Source of the DNA: Acidimicrobiia bacterium | GTDB lineage: Bacteria > Actinomycetota > Acidimicrobiia > Spongiisociales > JAHEDJ01 | Direction of reading: 5' to 3' | NCBI GenBank assembly: GCA_029210695.1 | Contig: JARGFH010000040.1 | Coordinates: 1 to 33,884 of the forward strand | DNA: 33,884 nt | Part shown: one piece after another, positions 3,429 to 33,884 of the stretch | Position numbering within the stretch: position 1 is the stretch's first letter | How the letters are laid out: every line of letters starts with the position of its first letter | Notes under the pieces: generated by a model | What the model was told of the DNA's origin: nothing | The model's input: only the letters and a program-made list of their open reading frames with translations | Databases searched by the model: none | Position numbers and translations under genes: made by a program

Positions 3429-3462
3429 GAGAAGCCCCCCACCTCCAGGTGGGGGGCTTCTC
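3429..3462. terminator. Strong bidirectional terminator hairpin
   Basis: A perfect inverted repeat pairs GAGAAGCCCCCCACCT (3429-3444) with AGGTGGGGGGCTTCTC (3447-3462), with CC between the arms. It lies between the converging ends of the rightward lysogeny operon and the leftward late operon. The stem starts GAGAAG and ends CTTCTC, which gives some U richness in either direction. It should stop transcripts from both sides. Confidence 0.9.
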
Positions 3463-13996: not shown

Positions 13997-14620
13997 TTAT
14001 TGGATGGGGACGGTGGAACGGTGGCGGCCGTACCGGCGGGCAACGGTAAGGTCGTGGTCGATGAGCCGACCGGCCGCGGCGACGTCTTTCGTCACGTCGG
14101 TGTAGGTCACCGAATATGAACCGATCGACTCCTGTCGGACACCCAGATTGTCGTTGGCAGCGAAAGCGGCAGCAGCCAGGAACATGCGGGACACGACCAC
14201 AGCACACAGCCCACGCAACCCGTCAGGAACGTCAGCCACAGTCGTGAACCCGGCTGTGTAGGTGACTACGATCGACTGTGGTTTGACCGTCCAGAACGTG
14301 TGGTAGCCGCCAGACAGGCGAACTACTTCACCTTTCTTACCGCCGTGCTTCAACACAAAGTCAGTGTTCTCGACCAGTGCGATACCGTCCTCGACCAATG
14401 ATGTGACCGCGGTGACCGGCCAGTGTGGAAGCCACAACGACGACCGAAAGTCGGGTCCGTCCAACGTGTCCACATAGTTGGCTTCATCAAGTGGAGTACC
14501 GACCGCAGCCTCGATACCACCCTGAGCCAGTTGGATCAGCTTGGCCACCCAATTATTAGGATCGGAGACAATGGACGACTGGAGTAGGGCTTCAATGTCC
14601 GACTGGTCACAGAGCGCCAT
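13997..14620 (-). CDS. Head-tail connector (adaptor) protein
   Basis: This 207-residue protein begins MALCDQSDIEALLQSSI, the usual opening of gp15/gp6-type head-tail adaptors, and has a helical N-terminal half (AKLIQLAQGGIEAAVG), a strand insert (DTLDGPDFRSSLWLPHWPVT), and IVVTYTAGFTTVADVPDGLR followed by long helices. The segment Y-x-A-G-[FY] plus 'P.dl' is typical. It would dock onto the portal. ATG 14620 has GGGAGG 7 bases upstream inside the end of the preceding gene, with a 14-base overlap. Confidence 0.8.
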   Translation of the reverse strand: MALCDQSDIEALLQSSIVSDPNNWVAKLIQLAQGGIEAAVGTPLDEANYVDTLDGPDFRSSLWLPHWPVTAVTSLVEDGIALVENTDFVLKHGGKKGEVVRLSGGYHTFWTVKPQSIVVTYTAGFTTVADVPDGLRGLCAVVVSRMFLAAAAFAANDNLGVRQESIGSYSVTYTDVTKDVAAAGRLIDHDLTVARRYGRHRSTVPIQ

Positions 14621-17258
14621 GTGTCAACCTCCCGCGCATTCGAACGATCTCAACAGGCTGACGGATGAACCCGACGGGTTGACGGATGAACCCGACGGGT
14701 TGACGGATGAACCCGACGGGTTGACGGATGAACCCGAAAGGTTGGGTCCCGTAGGCGGTGCCAACCCAGGAGATATTCCCGGTAGCGGACCCTTCGGGAA
14801 TACCTGAGGCGGCTACCCCGTCTGCGGAACCCACCCAGGACATCGATCCTGCAACAGCGCCTTCGTGGACGGCAACCCCATCTGCCGAGCCCACCCAGGA
14901 CATCGATCCTGCAACAGCGCCTTCGTGGACGGTTACACCGTCTGCGGAGCCCACCCAACCGACGGCTCCTGTTGAAGAACCTTCGTGGGTGACGGCACCG
15001 TCTGCACTCCCCACCCAGACAATCGACCCAGTCGAATCTCCTTCATGAACAACAGCGCCGTCCGCGGTGCCGGACCATGCAACCGACCCAGTGGCAGAAC
15101 CTTGATGAGTGGTGGCACCATCTGCCGAGCCAACCCACGACACAGACCCGGCACTTGACCCTTCGTGGACGGCAACCCCATCTGCCGAGCCCACCCAGGA
15201 GATGCTGCCTGTCGCGGTGCCTTCGGGGACACCCGTCGGAGCCACCCCGGTAGCCGACCCAACCCATCCGACTGCACCTGCGGCAGATCCTTCGTGGACG
15301 GTCGCGCCATCGGCAGCACCCACCCAACTTATGGCACCAGCCGCAGACCCTTGATGGGTGGTCGCGCCGTCCGCGGACCCAACCCAGGAAACGGCTCCCG
15401 ACGACGACCCTTCATAGGTTGCAACGCCATCGGCAGTACCAACCCAACTTATGGCACCAGCCGCAGACCCTTGATGGGTGGTCGCGCCGTCCGCGGACCC
15501 AACCCAGGAAACGGCTCCCGACGACGACCCTTCATAGGTTGCAACGCCATCGGCAGTACCAACCCAACTTATGGCACCAGCCGCGGACCCGGTTGGCGTA
15601 GATGCCAGCGGCCCAATCCAATCAGTGTTGCCCAATTCGATGGCATCCACATACCAGTGCTGTGTGACATCAGAGAAAACTCCGAGGTCAAGGTCCTCCC
15701 ATTCGGTGCCGGTGACCGCCGTTCCGGTCAGGCCGATCTCCTGAATGAGAGTGACCGAATCGCCTTCGTAGTAGCGGACCAGCAAGGTTCCGTCACCGAC
15801 ACCTGTCGCCGTCTCCGACGCGTAGTTGAGCTCGATTCGATACCATGTCGCCACCGACAGGGCGGTTGTGGCTGTGGCAATGACCCCACTGTTATCTCGC
15901 AATTGAATCTTGTTAGTCGCGTCGATATGGATGGCGAACGGGGTTATGAGGTCAGTATGTTCGGTAGCTTGAGCGATGCGATGATCGGTTGACGGCAAAG
16001 ACGGGTAGTAAAGGTACAGTCGGAGGAAACCGACCTCCGCTTGATTGAGGTCATACCAGCGGAGCTTGTGTGCGGCTGTTCCTCCTGCTGTGTAGTTGAT
16101 CTCGCAAGACACCAGCCCGTCGTGGACAACCGCAGTGTCGTAGGTGATGATTCCGGTGGCAGGTGTGGTGCGCTGAATCCCGTCGATGGTGTCAGTGTCG
16201 GCAATAGTCGTGTTGACTTCCGCACCGTCGACACCACCTTCGAATCCGTGCGTCCAGACCAAGGTTGGGTTGATGTGTGGTTCTACGTTGTAGGCATCGA
16301 AGAGGGAGCCGTCACCTTCGACTACTCGAAATCGGAACTCTTCCTGGTCGGACACAATGTCGGCTGAGTCGAGTTCGAGAACCCACAACCATTCGACTGT
16401 CACCCCTGCCGCAATGGTGCGCCCGGTAGTGAACGTGCCGTCCGCCTCGTCGGCGCGACCCCCTGCAAAACTGCCCGTCGACACTCGTTGAGTCAACAAC
16501 GATTCGTTATCGACGATGTCTGCCGACGCGATTGAGTTGACTCTGGCTGAAGCCCCGTTCACGTCTGTCCAGGCAGTCCAGTTGACTGCACCACCAGTAC
16601 CTTCAGCCATGTAGCTGTACTGCAACTTGGGGTTGATGGTTGCTGATTCGGCGGTGCCGGTGTTTTTGACACCCACCCGCAGATGGAAGATTGTGTCCTT
16701 GTCGGTGACCGCATCACGATCAGTCGAGTTCAAAGCAGCCGAACCTGCTGCCGTCCCATCAGCGAAGAACCCGAAATGGTCTTGCTCGAGGACAGCGACA
16801 GCAGCAGCAGGCGTGTAGGTGATCGTGACCGTGAGCGCCGACGCCGCCAAGGTGGAACCGTCCGCCCCCTTGACCTTGTTCCACAAACACCACGCATCCG
16901 ACACTCCATCACCACGAACCACCGCAGCTTCCCAGTCGGCAACTGACAGGCCGGTGGGGATGCCTGTTGAATCAGTGTGGTCGCTGGAGCGGGCAATGTT
17001 CTGGTTGCCGGTCGATCCTTCGCCAGGGTGCTGGGAGATCTCGGTTGCGCCGGTGACAACAGCCACCCCGGCAACGTTGTCCCATGAGTCGTCGACGAAG
17101 CCGGACCCGGTGACCGTCCACTGTGTTCGGATTGAGGTGACTGCGGCCGGGTCGAGGTCGGGTGGGGCGGTGGAGTTGTCGAGGGCATAGTTCCCGACCA
17201 GAGCGGCGTCAGTCGTGGACGGTGCAGTACCGGTGCCCAGGCGGATCCAGGTGGCCAC
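14607..17258 (-). CDS. Large minor structural protein with LamG-like domain and 20-residue repeats
   Basis: This 883-residue protein starts at GTG 17258 (one-base overlap, TAGTG). Residues 1-150 and 155-340 look like beta domains. Residues about 345-550 are a LamG/concanavalin-like domain (FLRLYLYYPSLPS, TWYRIELNYAS, HWYVDAIELGNTDWIGPLA). The C-terminal third is 14 tandem units of about 20 residues with the consensus GSaxGaiSWVGsADGvavhE, then four units of GFIRQPV. It lies between the connector and small capsid genes, not among tail genes. The likely role is a head fibre or decoration filament that binds cells or sugars, which is an inference. Repeat units share long stretches of identical DNA, so copy number may vary. 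Confidence 0.7.
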   Translation of the reverse strand: MATWIRLGTGTAPSTTDAALVGNYALDNSTAPPDLDPAAVTSIRTQWTVTGSGFVDDSWDNVAGVAVVTGATEISQHPGEGSTGNQNIARSSDHTDSTGIPTGLSVADWEAAVVRGDGVSDAWCLWNKVKGADGSTLAASALTVTITYTPAAAVAVLEQDHFGFFADGTAAGSAALNSTDRDAVTDKDTIFHLRVGVKNTGTAESATINPKLQYSYMAEGTGGAVNWTAWTDVNGASARVNSIASADIVDNESLLTQRVSTGSFAGGRADEADGTFTTGRTIAAGVTVEWLWVLELDSADIVSDQEEFRFRVVEGDGSLFDAYNVEPHINPTLVWTHGFEGGVDGAEVNTTIADTDTIDGIQRTTPATGIITYDTAVVHDGLVSCEINYTAGGTAAHKLRWYDLNQAEVGFLRLYLYYPSLPSTDHRIAQATEHTDLITPFAIHIDATNKIQLRDNSGVIATATTALSVATWYRIELNYASETATGVGDGTLLVRYYEGDSVTLIQEIGLTGTAVTGTEWEDLDLGVFSDVTQHWYVDAIELGNTDWIGPLASTPTGSAAGAISWVGTADGVATYEGSSSGAVSWVGSADGATTHQGSAAGAISWVGTADGVATYEGSSSGAVSWVGSADGATTHQGSAAGAISWVGAADGATVHEGSAAGAVGWVGSATGVAPTGVPEGTATGSISWVGSADGVAVHEGSSAGSVSWVGSADGATTHQGSATGSVAWSGTADGAVVHEGDSTGSIVWVGSADGAVTHEGSSTGAVGWVGSADGVTVHEGAVAGSMSWVGSADGVAVHEGAVAGSMSWVGSADGVAASGIPEGSATGNISWVGTAYGTQPFGFIRQPVGFIRQPVGFIRQPVGFIRQPVEIVRMRGRLTHGAL
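14659..14742 (-). repeat. Four tandem 21-bp units encoding GFIRQPV
   Basis: Four contiguous units beginning TGACGGATGAACCC (plus strand) encode GFIRQPV four times in frame at the C-terminus of the 883-residue protein. The first three are near identical; the unit nearest 14742 has diverged. Such a short in-frame array is prone to slippage. Confidence 0.9.
14743..15593 (-). repeat. Fourteen coding repeats of about 60 bp (20 residues)
   Basis: The repeats encode the consensus GSaxGaiSWVGsADGvavhE. Two units are lengthened to 23 residues by a G-(V/I)-PE insert. Trp-Val-Gly and Ala-Asp-Gly are almost invariant, which suggests a regular beta structure such as a solenoid or filament. Confidence 0.88.
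15322..15584 (-). repeat. Perfect 143-bp direct repeat with 120-bp period
   Basis: Bases 15322-15464 are identical to 15442-15584. The 120-bp period equals two 20-residue units, so a two-unit block duplicated recently inside the repeat array. The identity at synonymous sites shows the duplication is new or maintained by recombination. Confidence 0.9.
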
Positions 17259-20230: not shown

Positions 20231-21037
20231 CTAGGCGGCGTCCGTGAACTTGTGCGCGCTGTTCCACAATGTGGGACCGAGCTCGCCGTGTGAAACAATG
20301 CTGACCGCCGGTAACGTGTCTGTGTCGATACGAAGCCTCGACATTGCTTCCCGTGTGTACGGAAGGTCTGCGGACCGTAACTGGTCTTTGACCAGGGACA
20401 GGGAGTCCCCGTCGATGATTCGGGACGGTGCGCGGGTCCCGAACAGGGGTTCTACAGTGCAGCCACAGTTCGAATGGATGGGCATCAGATCTTCCGACGA
20501 GTAGCGTTGGGTGGAGGCCACAATGCACAGGCCACAGTTTTTGCCTGGTGCCAGTACCCGCTGATATCCGACAATCCTTGACGACTGGCTGGTGACCGCT
20601 TGGGCGGCGTTGCGGGCTGCCAGTTGTGTGTCTGTGTCGGCCAACATGCCGACCGTGTTGCGGCCTTGACCTACTGCGTCAGACCAGGAAGCACCCGCCG
20701 ATAAGGCTGTCCATGTCCTCACGAACGGTCGCCGATACACAACCTCCGGTGGGGTGGGACGGATGGGAATGTCGGTGAGGCCCAACGGGGACACGGCAAC
20801 ACCCAGTTCGAACTCCTGGAAAGTGGCCAGGTAGGCGTCTGTGGCGGAGACGGCTGCGTCGGTGATCGTGGCCAACACCGGCAACACGGTTTCGAGGAAC
20901 CGGGGTATGTCGGCTTCGTTGTATGAGGTCAGGTCTTTCCATGCGGTCACGGCTGTACGTCGGGCCGCACCGCGCAGCTGTTCAATACGGAAACGGTAGG
21001 CGGCCACCAACTCTTTACCGAGCACAGTGTCAGCCAC
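20231..21037 (-). CDS. Minor head protein, phage Mu gpF-like
   Basis: This 268-residue protein starts at GTG 21037 (TTG 21043 is possible), overlapping the stop of a small gene by 8 bases. The long open frame upstream to 21187 covers another gene and is not used. Near the C-terminal third lies the MuF zinc-like motif: Cys168-x2-Cys171, His188-x2-Cys191-x-Cys193 in KNCGLCIVASTQRYS and PIHSNCGC. N-terminal helices (VLGKELVAAYRFRIEQLRG) are usual for the family. It sits between the portal and scaffold genes, as expected, and would be a few copies inside the head near the portal. Confidence 0.8.
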   Translation of the reverse strand: MADTVLGKELVAAYRFRIEQLRGAARRTAVTAWKDLTSYNEADIPRFLETVLPVLATITDAAVSATDAYLATFQEFELGVAVSPLGLTDIPIRPTPPEVVYRRPFVRTWTALSAGASWSDAVGQGRNTVGMLADTDTQLAARNAAQAVTSQSSRIVGYQRVLAPGKNCGLCIVASTQRYSSEDLMPIHSNCGCTVEPLFGTRAPSRIIDGDSLSLVKDQLRSADLPYTREAMSRLRIDTDTLPAVSIVSHGELGPTLWNSAHKFTDAA

Positions 21038-25833: not shown

Positions 25834-26730
25834 TCAGGGTTCGTTATCAGGACGGGTGAGGGTGTCACCTAGAAGGCGCGCGGCTGCGGCGGTAGCAGTG
25901 CGAATGTTGCGGCCGGCGATGTAGCGTAGGGTGGTTTCGATCGACCGGTGACCTAGCAACTGTTGGACATCCTGAACGGGTGCACCCGCCTCCAACGCCA
26001 AGGTTGCTGCAGTGTGACGCAACGTATGGGGTGTGCACTTTTCGACCCCCACCGAGGTGGAGAGCTCGACGATGGTCTCCCAACCGGCTCGTCGTGACAG
26101 TGGCCGTCCTTCGGAGGTCAGAAGGATGGGGCCTTCCTTGCGGTCGCCGGCCGCCCGTCGTACAGCCTCGAGCACTGGCGGGGACAGAGGTTTCGCCTGA
26201 CGGTGGCCCCCCTTTACCGTCACAGTCAAAACGTCGTCGCTGATATCCTCCAGACGGGCTGTGCACGCCTCGGCGATTCGCAAACCCACACCCACCATCA
26301 GCCACACCAAAGCATGCGCAGCAGCCGACCGGTCCCTAGCAGCCGAAATCAGCAGCCGGGCCTGTGCAGGGGTCAACCCAGACTTTTGGGGTCCCTCACC
26401 TTTAGGGCGCCGCAAATGGACAGTCGGGTCTGTCTCCACATGCCCCTCATCAGTCAAATACGAGAACAACGAATGGACGGCTGACGCTTTCCTCTGCACC
26501 GTCTTCGGAGCCAACCCCTTCCCAATCAGTTCGGCCAGCCACCGTTGAACCACCGGCCGTGACACCACAAGCAACCCCACATTCACATTCTCCAGGTAGG
26601 TGATGAACTGGGCGACATCCGTACCGTACCCACTACGGGTGTTCGGTGTCATGCCCACCAACCAGTCCGCCACCAACCCACGCACCTCACCCATGCCATC
26701 ACTCATGCCATCACTCATCGGAGCAATCAT
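25834..26730 (-). CDS. Second tyrosine recombinase (XerC/D-like)
   Basis: This 298-residue protein starts at ATG 26730 (ATG 26718 possible). It has a SAM-like DNA-binding N-terminal domain (about 14-95) and a full catalytic domain: Arg151 in GVGLRIAEACTARLEDI, Lys173, His235-x-x-Arg238 in TPHTLRHTAAT, His261 in LLGHRSIETT and Tyr270. The size and wording match XerC/D-type recombinases more closely than the rightward integrase. The two share little sequence. It may resolve genome dimers, act on a host dif-like site or be a replaced/ancestral integrase. N-terminal MSDGMSDGM reflects a 12-bp tandem repeat. It ends the early operon and stands upstream of the late promoter. Confidence 0.87.
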   Translation of the reverse strand: MIAPMSDGMSDGMGEVRGLVADWLVGMTPNTRSGYGTDVAQFITYLENVNVGLLVVSRPVVQRWLAELIGKGLAPKTVQRKASAVHSLFSYLTDEGHVETDPTVHLRRPKGEGPQKSGLTPAQARLLISAARDRSAAAHALVWLMVGVGLRIAEACTARLEDISDDVLTVTVKGGHRQAKPLSPPVLEAVRRAAGDRKEGPILLTSEGRPLSRRAGWETIVELSTSVGVEKCTPHTLRHTAATLALEAGAPVQDVQQLLGHRSIETTLRYIAGRNIRTATAAAARLLGDTLTRPDNEP

Positions 26731-28374: not shown

Positions 28375-28609
28375 CTAGATCACTCCCTCGCCTGGTCCGC
28401 CACCGGTGATCACATTCGGGGCAAACCAGAAACATGCCACCCCGACCACCGTCTCGGTCGACGTATGAATCGACTACCACAACTTGTAACCGGCCCTTCT
28501 CGATCCCCACGACCTCTTCAACTGTGACACCTCTGTACGTATGTTCCAGGTTCCAGCCAGCATCGGCCCGATGATGACAGTTTGAGCACATGATGGTGTT
28601 GTCACTCAT
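28367..28609 (-). CDS. Small zinc-ribbon protein
   Basis: This 80-residue protein starts at ATG 28609 with GGAGG 9 bases upstream. It has CSNC (residues about 8-11) and CPEC (about 63-66) with a beta region between (GVTVEEVVGIEKGRLQVVVV DSYVD), a classical zinc-ribbon pair. Start and upstream stop share the GATGAGTGA overlap of 8 bases with the DUF5131 gene. It may be a small transcription- or translation-related adaptor; function unproven. Confidence 0.6.
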   Translation of the reverse strand: MSDNTIMCSNCHHRADAGWNLEHTYRGVTVEEVVGIEKGRLQVVVVDSYVDRDGGRGGMFLVCPECDHRWRTRRGSDLVG

Positions 28610-29483
28610 CTCGATCAGCCTCCCTGCTTCCACTGTGTACGCGGGGCATTTCGTCCCAGGTACACCCATCCAAGATGCGGCCCGCGGCCCGTTTGCCTAC
28701 ACGCCACATCTTCTGAAAGGCGCCGGCGCCGTTATCAAGAACGACCGACTCGGCAGAGGCTGGGATTCCCCCATAGGTCCACGACCACTCGCCCCATTGT
28801 TTGAAGAAGAACGGCACACCGGCTGTCTGACAACGACTACGAATATCCCGCACCCAGTCGGGGTGCATCGGGCGGGCCCCGGGTCCGGACTCACCACCAA
28901 CAATCACCCAATCGATAGCGGATAAGTTGAGGGCAGGGAGCGGCCCCAACAGCGGTTCGAGCGACAGGAACCGCACCGCCGCCGATGTGGAGCGCAGATG
29001 GTTCGCCCGGAACGCATACCGGTTCTCTTCGATCGAGGTCCCCAGCCACACGTTCGGCAGCGGACCGAAGTCCTCACCAAACTCGTCATCTGTCTCATAC
29101 CACTGAACCCACCGGGCCATCCGCTGTGGTCGTTTCGTCAGAATCTGAAAGACGTGAGCCTCCGCCCGCTCCATCACATGCCACACGCGGGCGATGAACT
29201 CCGGTGGCACATCGGGGTGGAACAGATCGGACATCGAGTTCACGAACACACGGCGAGGGCGCTTCCATCGCAACGGCTGATCCAACCGCTCCGGCAAACA
29301 GCGCACCAAACCAGTCCAATCATCCCTAATCGTGATGCCCCGATATGCCTCATTACCAGTCGTCTCGATACGGCGACTCATCGTGATCGCATAGCAGTTG
29401 TCACATCCCGGCGATACCTTTGAACACCCCAAAACCGGATTCCAAGTGGCATCGGTCCACTCGATCTTCGATCGATCACCCAT
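28602..29483 (-). CDS. DUF5131 family protein (phage Gp37/Gp68)
   Basis: This 293-residue protein starts at ATG 29483. It opens GDRSKIEWTDATWNPVLGCS and has the three-cysteine motif Cys20-x6-Cys27-x2-Cys30 in GCSKVSPGCDNCYA, with RPRRVFVNSMSDLFHPDVPP, QILTKRPQRM, WLGTSIEE and WVIVGGESGPGARPM following, all DUF5131 hallmarks. The TIM-barrel-like pattern with a CxxxxxxCxxC cluster recalls radical-SAM enzymes, although substrate and cofactor are not settled for the family. Such genes occur in many phages and in mobile elements, commonly in early or accessory regions as here. A tRNA- or DNA-modifying role is a hypothesis. Confidence 0.85.
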   Translation of the reverse strand: MGDRSKIEWTDATWNPVLGCSKVSPGCDNCYAITMSRRIETTGNEAYRGITIRDDWTGLVRCLPERLDQPLRWKRPRRVFVNSMSDLFHPDVPPEFIARVWHVMERAEAHVFQILTKRPQRMARWVQWYETDDEFGEDFGPLPNVWLGTSIEENRYAFRANHLRSTSAAVRFLSLEPLLGPLPALNLSAIDWVIVGGESGPGARPMHPDWVRDIRSRCQTAGVPFFFKQWGEWSWTYGGIPASAESVVLDNGAGAFQKMWRVGKRAAGRILDGCTWDEMPRVHSGSREADRDE

Positions 29484-30088: not shown

Positions 30089-30387
30089 CCCCATATCAGC
30101 CATCCCAACACCACACCAACACCTGTCCCATACAGGGCAAACATGACCATCACTATCAGCACCGGAGTAGCCCGGTCGATCGTTGCCTCGTCGTCCGCAC
30201 CGACCCATACCTTCCGATACCCAAGCGTCTCACGGCAGCAATCACACAGATCATCGGGATAACACCATTCGGAGTCGGTGAGGCACCGTGCCCGATGTGG
30301 TCCCACTGTCCGATGCTCGAACGAGCCCTCCACTCCCTCAAAGTTGAGGATGTCGTCACTCACCGGACCGCGTGTTTCATCGTCCAT
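30085..30387 (-). CDS. Small membrane protein with cysteine cluster
   Basis: This 100-residue protein starts at ATG 30387 with AAGGA 9 bases upstream, overlapping the upstream gene by 11 bases. A soluble N-terminal part has Cys at about 42, 49, 55, 57 and 58 (ARCLTDSEWCYPDDLCDCCR), and the C-terminus is a membrane helix at about 76-100 (VLIVMVMFALYGTGVGVVLG). A cytoplasmic metal-binding head on a C-terminal anchor is suggested. Its function is unknown; membrane-bound early proteins often affect superinfection. Confidence 0.55.
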   Translation of the reverse strand: MDDETRGPVSDDILNFEGVEGSFEHRTVGPHRARCLTDSEWCYPDDLCDCCRETLGYRKVWVGADDEATIDRATPVLIVMVMFALYGTGVGVVLGWLIWG

Positions 30388-30868: not shown

Positions 30869-31488
30869 CGGGCAGCCGTTCCGAGGACCCCGGTTTCTGT
30901 CAGAAACTCTCGAAGCAGGACTGCTACTTCGTGTCTACGCCCGTAGACGGTGCGTCCGTCGAGGATGTCATGATGGGTTTTGCACAGCAGAACCGCATTG
31001 TCAGGGTGGTTGACGGTTTTGGAGCCGCCCATACCCCGATGGTTTAGGTGGGCGCACTCGAGCGGGTTGCCTCTACCGGTCGGGAAGGTGCAGCCGGGCC
31101 AACGACAGGACACGTCCCGGACGCGCACATGCTTCGACAGGGCTGCCATGGACATCATGAGCTTCCCGCGCGGGATCCCGCGCGGCCTCGTATAGTCATC
31201 CAGACCTGGATAGTTGACAGCAGCAGGGCGGCTCGGTGAGGATCCCGCACCGCCATCATCAACAGCAGTGGGTGAGCTGTGTTCACAGAAGTGGGTGAGG
31301 TGAATCCACACACCCTCAAACAGGCCCAACGCCTGACCGGACACGATGCGACGGTCACACCGCAAACAGCGGCCACCATGTTTGGCCCGAAATGTTGCTT
31401 CTGGGACTGCTTCGATCAAAGGTGGTATTGGGGTGTGTCCGTCGCATAGGACGCAGGTGCCCGGGTCCATCAAATGCAAATCACACAT
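30865..31488 (-). CDS. HNH endonuclease with N-terminal zinc ribbons
   Basis: This 207-residue protein starts at ATG 31488 (8-base overlap with the upstream gene). The N-terminal third has two Cys clusters (MCDLHLMDPGTCVLCDGH, GGRCLRCDRRIVSGQ ... HFCEH). A linker of Ser/Pro follows, and the C-terminal domain is HNH: SCRWPGCTFPTGRGNPLECA HLNHRGMGG, N-x-x-LL-C-K-T-H-H in NAVLLCKTHH. The His-x-Asn-His and Asn/His set fits the beta-beta-alpha-metal fold. It lies in the early operon after the initiator group, so it may cut DNA during replication or host takeover, or be a homing-type or nicking enzyme. It differs from the packaging-side HNH. Confidence 0.78.
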   Translation of the reverse strand: MCDLHLMDPGTCVLCDGHTPIPPLIEAVPEATFRAKHGGRCLRCDRRIVSGQALGLFEGVWIHLTHFCEHSSPTAVDDGGAGSSPSRPAAVNYPGLDDYTRPRGIPRGKLMMSMAALSKHVRVRDVSCRWPGCTFPTGRGNPLECAHLNHRGMGGSKTVNHPDNAVLLCKTHHDILDGRTVYGRRHEVAVLLREFLTETGVLGTAAR

Positions 31489-31912
31489 GAGGGGTCGAAG
31501 CTTTTTGGGAGGTTTCACCGGCGGTGGGAAGGGCAGAGGCCATACCGGTGCGGGTGGCGTCACAAGCAACACAGATTGCTTCGCGCATGCCACCAGCAAG
31601 GTGGAAGATGGCCCAGCGGGGATGCCGGCAAAAGTCGGGGTCGGTTGGATCCACCCCCTCAGGGACGTCTGTTCTCGAGTGTGCTTTCGCAGCGGCCAAC
31701 AGTTCAGACGGAGAGGGTGCCGATTTGCGGCCCTGCTCATACAGTTCGTGGACGGCCTTCCACAACGCCCGTTCCGGTACCCTCGAGAAGTCGGGGAACA
31801 GGGAGGCCACCCGTTCGGCTGATGCCAGCCAGCGGGTACCCGGCCAACGGGTTTCAATCCATTCCAACACGTCAGCGAACGTGTCCTCAGACAGGCGGTG
31901 CATCAGGCTCAT
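31481..31912 (-). CDS. Replication-module protein, helicase-loader-like N-terminal region
   Basis: This 143-residue protein starts at ATG 31912 (ATGA overlap). It begins SLMHRLSEDTFADVLEWIET RWPG, then TRWLASAERVASLFPDFSRV and WKAVHELYEQGRKSAPSPSE LLAAAKAHS. Tandem short helices ending in P-S-P-S-E-L-L-A-A-A resemble small helicase-loader or primosome proteins next to phage initiators. The end has a His/Cys cluster (FCRHPRWAI ... ICVACDATR). No P-loop is present, so it is not a DnaC ATPase. The role is inferred from context. Confidence 0.5.
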   Translation of the reverse strand: MSLMHRLSEDTFADVLEWIETRWPGTRWLASAERVASLFPDFSRVPERALWKAVHELYEQGRKSAPSPSELLAAAKAHSRTDVPEGVDPTDPDFCRHPRWAIFHLAGGMREAICVACDATRTGMASALPTAGETSQKASTPHV

Positions 31913-32178
31913 GGTCGGCCACCCATCAACGTTTCCAACCTGCCGGCCACTTCCGGGCCGAGGAACGTGGCTGCCACACCACGCAGCACAGCCATGGCAG
32001 TGTTGGCACCCGTCATCCCATACTGGTCTTTGGAAAACAAAGCTTGGGCGCGGACGTCCAACCAGCCGGCTGTCCGATCAAACAGATACGCTTCCAACAG
32101 GCTGTCGGTCAGTTCAACCGACGGTTCCCCTGCTTCGATCCGTCGGCGGGTTTCAGCCAGATCGGTAGCCGGATGCAT
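31909..32178 (-). CDS. Small helical protein in the replication module
   Basis: This 89-residue protein starts at ATG 32178, sharing one base with the initiator stop (TGATG). Helices: HPATDLAETRRRIEAG, EPSVELTDSLLEAYLFDR, TAGWLDVRAQALFSKDQYG and NTAMAVLRGVAATFLGPEVA. Nothing I recognise. It lies between the initiator and loader-like genes and is coupled to both, which suggests a role in replication. Confidence 0.55.
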   Translation of the reverse strand: MHPATDLAETRRRIEAGEPSVELTDSLLEAYLFDRTAGWLDVRAQALFSKDQYGMTGANTAMAVLRGVAATFLGPEVAGRLETLMGGRP

Positions 32179-33110
32179 CAGCCTGACCCCCTGGCAACCT
32201 GACGGATCGCATCCCGACGTCGTTGACGGGCTGTGGCCGCCTGATATTCGTCACGGTCTACGTCTGATACGGCTGTCAACGGGTTCGACGAATGGAAGCG
32301 GCGCCAATGGGTCGCCAACGAACTCAACGTCAGTTTGCCTAACCCCCACTCGAGAACCAGCCGTTGTGCGATCGGTTGTAGTTCATCCGGATCCACGCCG
32401 GCCCGTAGCAGTTCGGTTTGGAAACGGCCTTGGAGTTTGCGTTGGGCTTCGGAGGGTTCCGAACCGACTGCTTGAGAGATTGCCTCCCACATTTGGTCTC
32501 GGACCGGCTTCGAAATGGGTGGCGGTCGAGATAGATCGACCGTAGGGAGATCTATCTCTCTGGTGGGAGCGGGAGCGGTCTCTTTAGAAACCGGCCCTGT
32601 GGCGCGCGCTGAGGACGTCCCACAGGGCCGGTCTTGACCTGAGGTTGAGACCGGCCCTGTGGTTCCGGTCGAGACGTCGGAGGAAACCCCAGGTGGAGGG
32701 GGTGTGGCGTCGTCGTTCACGTCGAAAACAGGCGGTTTTGAGGGTTCAGTTTCTAACCCGGCCCCCTGGGGCCGGGTAAGGATTGGGAGGCTGTTTTCAG
32801 TGTGGTCTTGACCGCATATACACTCACCGGTGTACCGGTTGGGAACGTGCAGCTGATATTCCTGAGCTTCACGCCGGCGCCGGCCCAACACTTCGACAAA
32901 CCCCAGTTCGATGAGCCGGTCCAAGTTTTTGCGAACGGCCCGATCTGAGCTCACCGACGTGTACTCGGCCAACATGAGCTCTGGCACTTTGGCGTAGCCG
33001 ACGTCGTTGGCCTGATCAGCGAACGCCACCAGCAGCAGTTTGAGATGGCCGGGTAGTTGGCGGCCTTCATGGCGGGCCACCCAGGCGTGTGGTGTGACAT
33101 GATGACTCAC
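32178..33110 (-). CDS. Replication initiator-like protein with winged helix (O-like layout)
   Basis: This 310-residue protein starts at GTG 33110 (GTGA overlap with the WD-repeat gene). The N-terminal 95 residues are a winged helix: HLKLLLVAFADQANDVGYAK, VPELMLAEYTSVSSDRAVRK, NLDRLIELGFVEVLGRRRR and EYQLHVP, as in phage O and replication initiators. Residues 100-200 form a Pro/Ser/Thr-rich linker. The C-terminal domain (205-310, RDQMWEAISQAVGSEPSEAQ, LVLEWGLGKLTLSSLATHWR RF) resembles the part that recruits the helicase loader. The linker-coding DNA contains three 13-bp elements at 30-bp steps, so the protein probably binds its own gene, as lambda O does. Initiator identity is inferred. Confidence 0.7.
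   Translation of the reverse strand: MSHHVTPHAWVARHEGRQLPGHLKLLLVAFADQANDVGYAKVPELMLAEYTSVSSDRAVRKNLDRLIELGFVEVLGRRRREAQEYQLHVPNRYTGECICGQDHTENSLPILTRPQGAGLETEPSKPPVFDVNDDATPPPPGVSSDVSTGTTGPVSTSGQDRPCGTSSARATGPVSKETAPAPTREIDLPTVDLSRPPPISKPVRDQMWEAISQAVGSEPSEAQRKLQGRFQTELLRAGVDPDELQPIAQRLVLEWGLGKLTLSSLATHWRRFHSSNPLTAVSDVDRDEYQAATARQRRRDAIRQVARGSG
32528..32558. repeat. 10-bp perfect inverted repeat in the initiator gene
   Basis: GAGATAGATC (32528-32537) and GATCTATCTC (32549-32558) form a perfect dyad with an 11-base loop. It is A+T-richer than its surroundings and lies 32 bases from the 30-bp phased elements. It may be part of the origin, such as a binding or unwinding site. Confidence 0.6.
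32590..32662. repeat. Three 13-bp elements at 30-bp spacing, alternating orientation: candidate origin iterons
   Basis: ACCGGCCCTGTGG occurs exactly at 32590-32602 and 32650-32662, and its reverse complement CCACAGGGCCGGT at 32620-32632. The starts are 30 bases apart, about three helical turns, so all sites face one side of the DNA. The middle copy is inverted and encodes an unrelated peptide (RPCGT instead of TGPVS), so the constraint is on DNA, not protein. In lambda the origin iterons lie in gene O in the linker-coding part; this is the same place. Confidence 0.7.
32756..32777. repeat. GC-rich near-perfect palindrome in the initiator gene
   Basis: ACCCGGCCCC (32756-32765) and GGGGCCGGGT (32768-32777) are separated by CT. 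A 10-bp stem of this G+C content would form a very stable hairpin in RNA or single-stranded DNA. It lies 94 bases upstream of the phased elements with respect to transcription. Its role is unknown; it could be a primer or control hairpin of the origin. Confidence 0.6.
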
Positions 33111-33884
33111 AGGTTTGACCCCCGGTAGTAGGCGTGGACGGTGCCGTCGTCGTTGCAGTCGATCATCGCCCAACCCAACGTGTTGTCGCCTGTAGGTACA
33201 GCAACCGCTAAGCCGTGGTGGTGGGCGTCACGGATACCAGTGGTGAGAAGCATCGGGTTGTGGTTAGTCCATCCCCGATGTGACGCAAATTCGACAGCCA
33301 AAGCGTCCCGAACGTCCCAAGCGTCCCAAGCGTCCCGAACGTCCCAAACGTCCCAAACGTCCCGAACGTCCCAAACGTCCCGAACGTCCCAAACGTCCCG
33401 AACGTCCCAAGCGTCCCAAGCGTCCCGAACGTCCCAAACGTCCCAAGCGGTGTCGTACTGTTGGAGAGTCCAATCCAAACCCCGAGCTTCCAACGCCTCC
33501 CTCAGCGACACCTCCACATGTTCGGCATCCCATTCGGGACGGGCCAAAGCATCACGCCACAACAACACCGAGGACACAATGTCAGGATCCTGCAACGGCC
33601 GGTGCAGTGCTGTTACCGCATTCTCGAGTTCTTCACGGATGGCTTCACGCACCATAACCAGTTGGCTGGCACGGCATTTGTCACCCCGTTCAACCACCGG
33701 CTGATCTGTTTCGATCTTCCACAGACGGGACGGCCACCCGTCCGGCCACAACCCGCCAATTCGCAGGGCTGTTTCCGGGCTGCGAGTGAAGTTCCACCCT
33801 TCCGCACACTCTTTGTCGGATCTGTCAACAGTCACAGCCGGCAGCAGGGTGCCCGGTGTGCCGTCAAAAATCGGGGGGCCACCC
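33107..33884 (-). CDS. WD/RD tripeptide-repeat protein (main part; starts at 127 in the circle)
   Basis: The frame is open to the end of the record and continues in the circle to ATG 127, giving 275 residues (828 bases with the stop). The N-terminal 160 residues include CAEGWNFTRSPETALRIGGL WPDGWP and a helical region with REAIREELENAVTALHRPLQ. Residues about 163-210 are 16 units of (A/V)-(W/R)-D. The C-terminal 60 residues (FASHRGWTNHNPMLLTTGIR, GLAVAVPTGDNTLGWAMIDC, NDDGTVHAYYRGS) may be a small catalytic or binding domain. Its stop overlaps the initiator start. It has no counterpart that I recognise; tripeptide repeats of this kind are prone to slippage. Confidence 0.75.
   Translation of the reverse strand, partial: GGPPIFDGTPGTLLPAVTVDRSDKECAEGWNFTRSPETALRIGGLWPDGWPSRLWKIETDQPVVERGDKCRASQLVMVREAIREELENAVTALHRPLQDPDIVSSVLLWRDALARPEWDAEHVEVSLREALEARGLDWTLQQYDTAWDVWDVRDAWDAWDVRDVWDVRDVWDVRDVWDVWDVRDAWDAWDVRDALAVEFASHRGWTNHNPMLLTTGIRDAHHHGLAVAVPTGDNTLGWAMIDCNDDGTVHAYYRGSNL
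33305..33448 (-). repeat. Sixteen tandem 9-bp units encoding WD/RD tripeptides
   Basis: Units of the form GTCCCRARC (plus strand) run for 144 bases without interruption, and each encodes AWD, VWD or VRD. The period is exactly three codons, so gain or loss of units keeps the frame. Variation among units is limited to two positions, which suggests continued slippage or recombination. Confidence 0.92.
33808..33884. repeat. Terminal direct repeat, right copy
   Basis: Identical to 1-77. It is the closing overlap of the circular assembly, and counted once the circle has 33807 bp. Confidence 0.95.

Follow-up and report, generated by a model that had tools for sequence, protein, structure and literature searches.

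The repeat-bearing DNA within the replication initiator gene of the phage described here is very probably its replication origin, of the style known from phages lambda and SPP1. This probability rests on three features taken together: repeated elements, an easily melted segment and conservation at the level of the DNA. Origins that lie inside initiator genes have a characteristic anatomy, with initiator-specific repeats in the DNA that encodes the linker and easily melted DNA after them, hence our reading. A preliminary description had placed a candidate origin in this gene, and that proposal is now supported by a related phage, by the layout of distant homologues and by a lambda control.

The window, meaning the whole 33,884-nucleotide stretch of DNA analysed, corresponds to contig C40 in an assembly of 3.9 Mb and is the genome of a temperate phage. 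Its ends (1–77 and 33808–33884) are identical over 77 bp, which implies a circular phage genome of ~33.8 kb (about 33,807 bp). The phage encodes a tyrosine integrase (25834–26730) and a terminase akin to actinobacteriophage terminases, and all of its recognised genes are on the minus strand.

The initiator gene occupies 32178–33110 on the minus strand and begins with GTG, which corrects the preliminary description. The start codon shares a GTGA overlap with the upstream stop codon, and the related phage supports the same start. The 310-aa product comprises a winged-helix N-terminal part, an unstructured linker and a helical C-terminal part, which an AlphaFold model (mean pLDDT 59.7) places at residues 21–87, 101–199 and 201–308. 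The winged helix scores roughly 64–92 per ten-residue block, and the majority of linker segments fall below 50. This model agrees with the earlier placement of the repeats in the linker between the winged-helix N-terminal and the C-terminal domain. Among PHROGs replication-initiation families the protein matches phrog_270 (E 7e-8) and phrog_1032 (E 1e-5), along with a weak match to the O-like family phrog_391 (E 6e-4). Structural comparison with BFVD places it next to phage helix-turn-helix proteins and proteins of the lambda O type. A PDB fold search returned generic winged helices only, none reaching E 0.001, and in Pfam every match, HTH_36 among them, was weak and fell short of the cut-off, with RepA_N (PF06970) absent. 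Protein and DNA searches of phage and plasmid records and two scans of bacterial genomes found no relative. Directly downstream, two small minus-strand genes (89 and 143 aa; 31481–32178) are collinear and similar in the related phage and are candidates for the helicase loader; family searches with both gave no match, and no helicase-loader gene was recognised, a point counted against the origin reading.

Three 13-bp elements at exact 30-bp steps were confirmed in the initiator gene. The element ACCGGCCCTGTGG is found at 32590–32602 (+), inverted at 32620–32632 (−), and again at 32650–32662 (+), so that the middle copy is oriented opposite to copies 1 and 3. These exact copies are the only three in the 3.9-Mb assembly. 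The middle copy does encode a different peptide, as first described: in the minus-strand gene the peptide is TGPVS for copies 1 and 3 but DRPCG for copy 2. The accompanying claim that equal steps put all copies on one helix face holds only approximately, because with 10.5 bp per turn a 30-bp step makes 2.86 turns rather than a whole number, a rotation of ~50 degrees per step. When the whole window is shuffled by dinucleotides, inverted 13-mer pairs at most 80 bp apart arise at a mean of 0.05 per shuffle; the window itself holds several places with such pairs, and three arms occur only at the ACCGGCCCTGTGG site. Within the initiator gene, inverted repeats form 16 matching pairs relative to a null mean of 0.8, exceeding 500 of 500 synonymous-codon shuffles.

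Two further structures had been overlooked. Copies 2 and 3 together form a 43-bp near-palindrome (32620–32662) with 21-nt arms that are 90% complementary, and the 10-bp arms GAGATAGATC (32528–32537) and GATCTATCTC (32549–32558), separated by 11 nt, make up another inverted repeat, the second, spanning 32528–32558. At the start of the linker, an imperfect palindrome (CTAACCCGGCCCC/GGGGCCGGGTAAG; 32753–32780) carries degenerate 13-mer matches in both phages and is possibly an outlying site. In the gene upstream of the initiator, a 9-bp unit (CGTCCCAAA/CGTCCCGAA) is repeated head to tail ~16 times at 33298–33450 and is translated as W-D-V/R-D-V. These tandem repeats were considered as iterons and ruled out because they are missing from the related phage.

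The second inverted repeat lies within the 40-bp segment of the initiator gene with the weakest pairing (32525–32564), the proposed unwinding element. The nearest-neighbour energy of this segment is −52.2 kcal/mol, where the gene has a mean of −59.7 (s.d. 2.7), and synonymous shuffles would predict stronger pairing (p 0.015). In the coding sense the segment begins 26 bp 3′ of 13-mer copy 1. The weakness is mild, as the segment is outside the 20 weakest of the genome, whose weakest reaches −48.3 kcal/mol, and this was counted against the origin reading.

The only close relative found was IMGVR_UViG_3300037483_001810, whose initiator is 85% identical, and the close comparison therefore rests on two sequences. 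The two initiator genes align gap-free, within a continuous 84% alignment covering 31289–33164. One block of 117 bp (32518–32634, minus strand), the proposed core origin, is identical in both phages, and no other identical run in the compared shared DNA is as long, the runner-up being 49 bp. That shorter run lies at 32036–32084, in the small gene that directly follows the initiator gene. On both sides of the 117-bp block the flanks are ~65–70% identical, with nearby 40-bp bins down to 25–28 matches. The block encodes initiator residues 159–198, within the predicted unstructured linker, and shows no synonymous change over 42 consecutive same-residue degenerate codons, in comparison with 32% changed elsewhere (permutation p 2e-5). 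It contains 13-mer copies 1 and 2, the second inverted repeat and the weakest 40-bp segment; it starts 2 bp ahead of copy 2 and stops right after the second inverted repeat.

Judged by this comparison, the stretch is conserved as DNA and not as protein. The original assertion that the DNA itself is conserved thus stands, with 117 bp unchanged between phages ~84% identical in the gene region. Conservation of the motif and its spacing, a check proposed with that description, was found in part in this one close relative: copies 1 and 2, both proposed initiator binding sites, are identical, while copy 3, which lies outside the block, keeps its place and spacing but is degenerate, with two mismatches (ACCGGTACTGTGG). 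The state of copy 3 was counted against the origin reading, as was the energy profile of the relative, where the weak segment of the block is only second weakest, behind a different part of the gene.

Distant homologues display the same layout. Scanning IMG/VR with a winged-helix profile built from three sequences yielded 30 loci, of which 26 besides the window are non-redundant (L044 was set aside as a duplicate of L043). Repeats were assessed as 9-mers repeated inside the gene relative to synonymous shuffles (p < 0.01). An excess was detected in 28/30 homologues and in 24/26 of the non-redundant set, the exceptions being L053 and L060, compared with 10/85 controls, which were neighbouring long reading frames picked by length and given 100 shuffles each. 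The arrays occur directly after the winged helix, with unit spacings of, for example, 17, 21, 22 and 39 bp, and such arrays are present too in prophage homologues from the same bacterial class. Their repeat sequences differ from the 13-mers of the window and are mostly direct, with an inverted excess in 6/30; the alternating orientation of the window’s 13-mers, set against direct repeats in most homologues, was counted against the origin reading.

In 17/27 genes the start of the weakest 40-mer falls between −40 and +60 of the array’s 3′ end, where 3.5 were expected (p 2e-9), and in 13/27 the DNA there is weaker than the protein requires (p < 0.05). For these counts the array was set by hand from the 13-mers in the window and its close relative, and by an automatic rule in the other genes. 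One prophage initiator homologue (L025) has a TGA stop within the family match and is apparently decayed; its linker-coding DNA retains strong direct and inverted repeats. Five other matches (L024 and L028–L031) resemble host GntR/MarR-type regulators in sequence and were excluded as not being phage initiators. As a control, lambda gene O was put through the same procedure and gave a repeat p of 0 of 500 and a weakest 40-mer 4 nt past iteron 4. The control recovers the known origin of lambda.

Other functions for the conserved block have to be weighed against an origin. If it acted as RNA, two strong mRNA hairpins would control translation, termination or antitermination, and conservation would reflect RNA structure. 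The minus-strand RNA does fold into two hairpins (−50.9 kcal/mol, z −4.1, with 0/200 shuffles as stable), but such folding is expected of any inverted repeat, and in the relative the hairpin of copies 2 and 3 loses pairs with compensating changes absent. Moreover, the mostly direct repeats of the homologues (inverted excess in 6/30) are unable to form hairpins, the whole window has no Rfam match at gathering scores, and an RNA function fails to predict the adjoining weak DNA. We consider a role as RNA improbable. Operators typically have inverted repeats, and the initiator could autoregulate, so the repeats might instead be operator-like sites where binding of the initiator or a repressor regulates the replication genes, with no origin function. 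Yet the sites are ~450 bp into the gene, away from its start, and the repeats of the relatives are paired with an easily melted 3′ segment for which an operator has no need; we regard this as highly improbable.

The 117-bp identity could also be a recent recombination tract or chance, free of any constraint. Phage genomes are mosaic, and two sequences alone cannot separate this from constraint. However, the block exceeds every other identical run in the compared shared DNA (117 bp, next 49 bp), its edges coincide with a 13-mer (2 bp before it) and the end of the second inverted repeat, both flanks are ~65–70% identical, and the repeats are significant in each genome by itself. Such an accident appears extremely improbable.

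For an origin, we propose the following sequence of events. The winged-helix domain of the initiator would bind the 13-mers that face each other in inverted orientation (32590 and 32620), and the 13-mer at 32650 would serve as an auxiliary site. The resulting complex would melt the weak segment at ~32525–32564, and the C-terminal part of the initiator, or a small downstream protein, would recruit the host DnaB-type helicase. Binding, melting, helicase loading and the start of replication at this site are all inferred. In an alternative arrangement, which we find doubtful, the initiator reads two inverted 13-mers together as a single large palindrome, and a second protein, of host or phage, has its own site in the second inverted repeat over the weak segment and sets the melting point; the result would be a compact, two-part origin of ~117 bp, unlike iteron arrays. 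As a locator of the origin, GC skew around the genome is not decisive: it has its minimum at 30385, 2.2 kb from the repeats, and a detrended maximum at 21003, which is not opposite (amplitude p 0.017), and these positions were counted against the origin reading.

The lambda origin lies in the middle of gene O and consists of initiator-binding repeats with easily melted DNA to their 3′ side (PMC7466680). The phage studied here resembles it in having its proposed origin midway through the initiator gene, repeats followed by weak DNA on the 3′ side, and the weak O-like family match (E 6e-4). Where lambda has four direct 18–19-bp iterons and an AT-rich tract, this phage has three alternating 13-mers 30 bp apart and a separate inverted repeat in a GC-rich, only mildly weak segment. 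Its origin would work like that of lambda, yet we do not file it under the lambda O/P module because it lacks direct 18–19-bp iterons and no loader gene could be recognised. The same in-gene anatomy is found in SPP1, whose oriL is within gene 38 (PMC6316719); SPP1 differs as a Bacillus phage with direct repeats and a second origin, oriR, and the phage studied here differs in that its loader was not recognised.

Plasmids offer a further parallel. In pSK41-type RepA_N initiators, four Rep boxes at the centre of the rep gene are bound by the N-terminal winged helix, and the linker encoded by the origin is dispensable (PMC5703833). Both systems have repeats specific to the initiator in linker-coding DNA; ours is a phage and not a plasmid, with different repeats and without a RepA_N match in Pfam. 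Among actinobacterial phages, RepA of extrachromosomal mycobacteriophage prophages is an initiator with an N-terminal helix-turn-helix, for which an in-gene origin was suggested as possible and repeats were not reported (PMC7157519). Those prophages are kept extrachromosomally, whereas the phage studied here encodes an integrase.

For an uncultured phage with an initiator unmatched among the phage records searched, these results provide a short candidate origin that can be tested, and they offer a candidate replicon for hosts without genetic tools. Repeat excess over synonymous shuffles, combined with weak DNA at the 3′ end of the array, flags likely origins in most of the distant homologues. 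As the procedure also recovers the known origin of lambda, it suggests that many phage origins may be locatable from sequence alone.

Several other features of the phage genome were observed. A DUF5131 protein is encoded at 28602–29483 (E 8e-103; phrog_2045). An 883-aa reading frame at 14607–17258 is a probable tape measure gene with long internal repeats at 14760–15590, one pair of which is 166 bp in length, 98% identical and 120 bp apart. Finally, a 34-bp near-perfect palindrome beginning GAGAAGCCCCCCACCT lies at 3429–3462 and is possibly a terminator.
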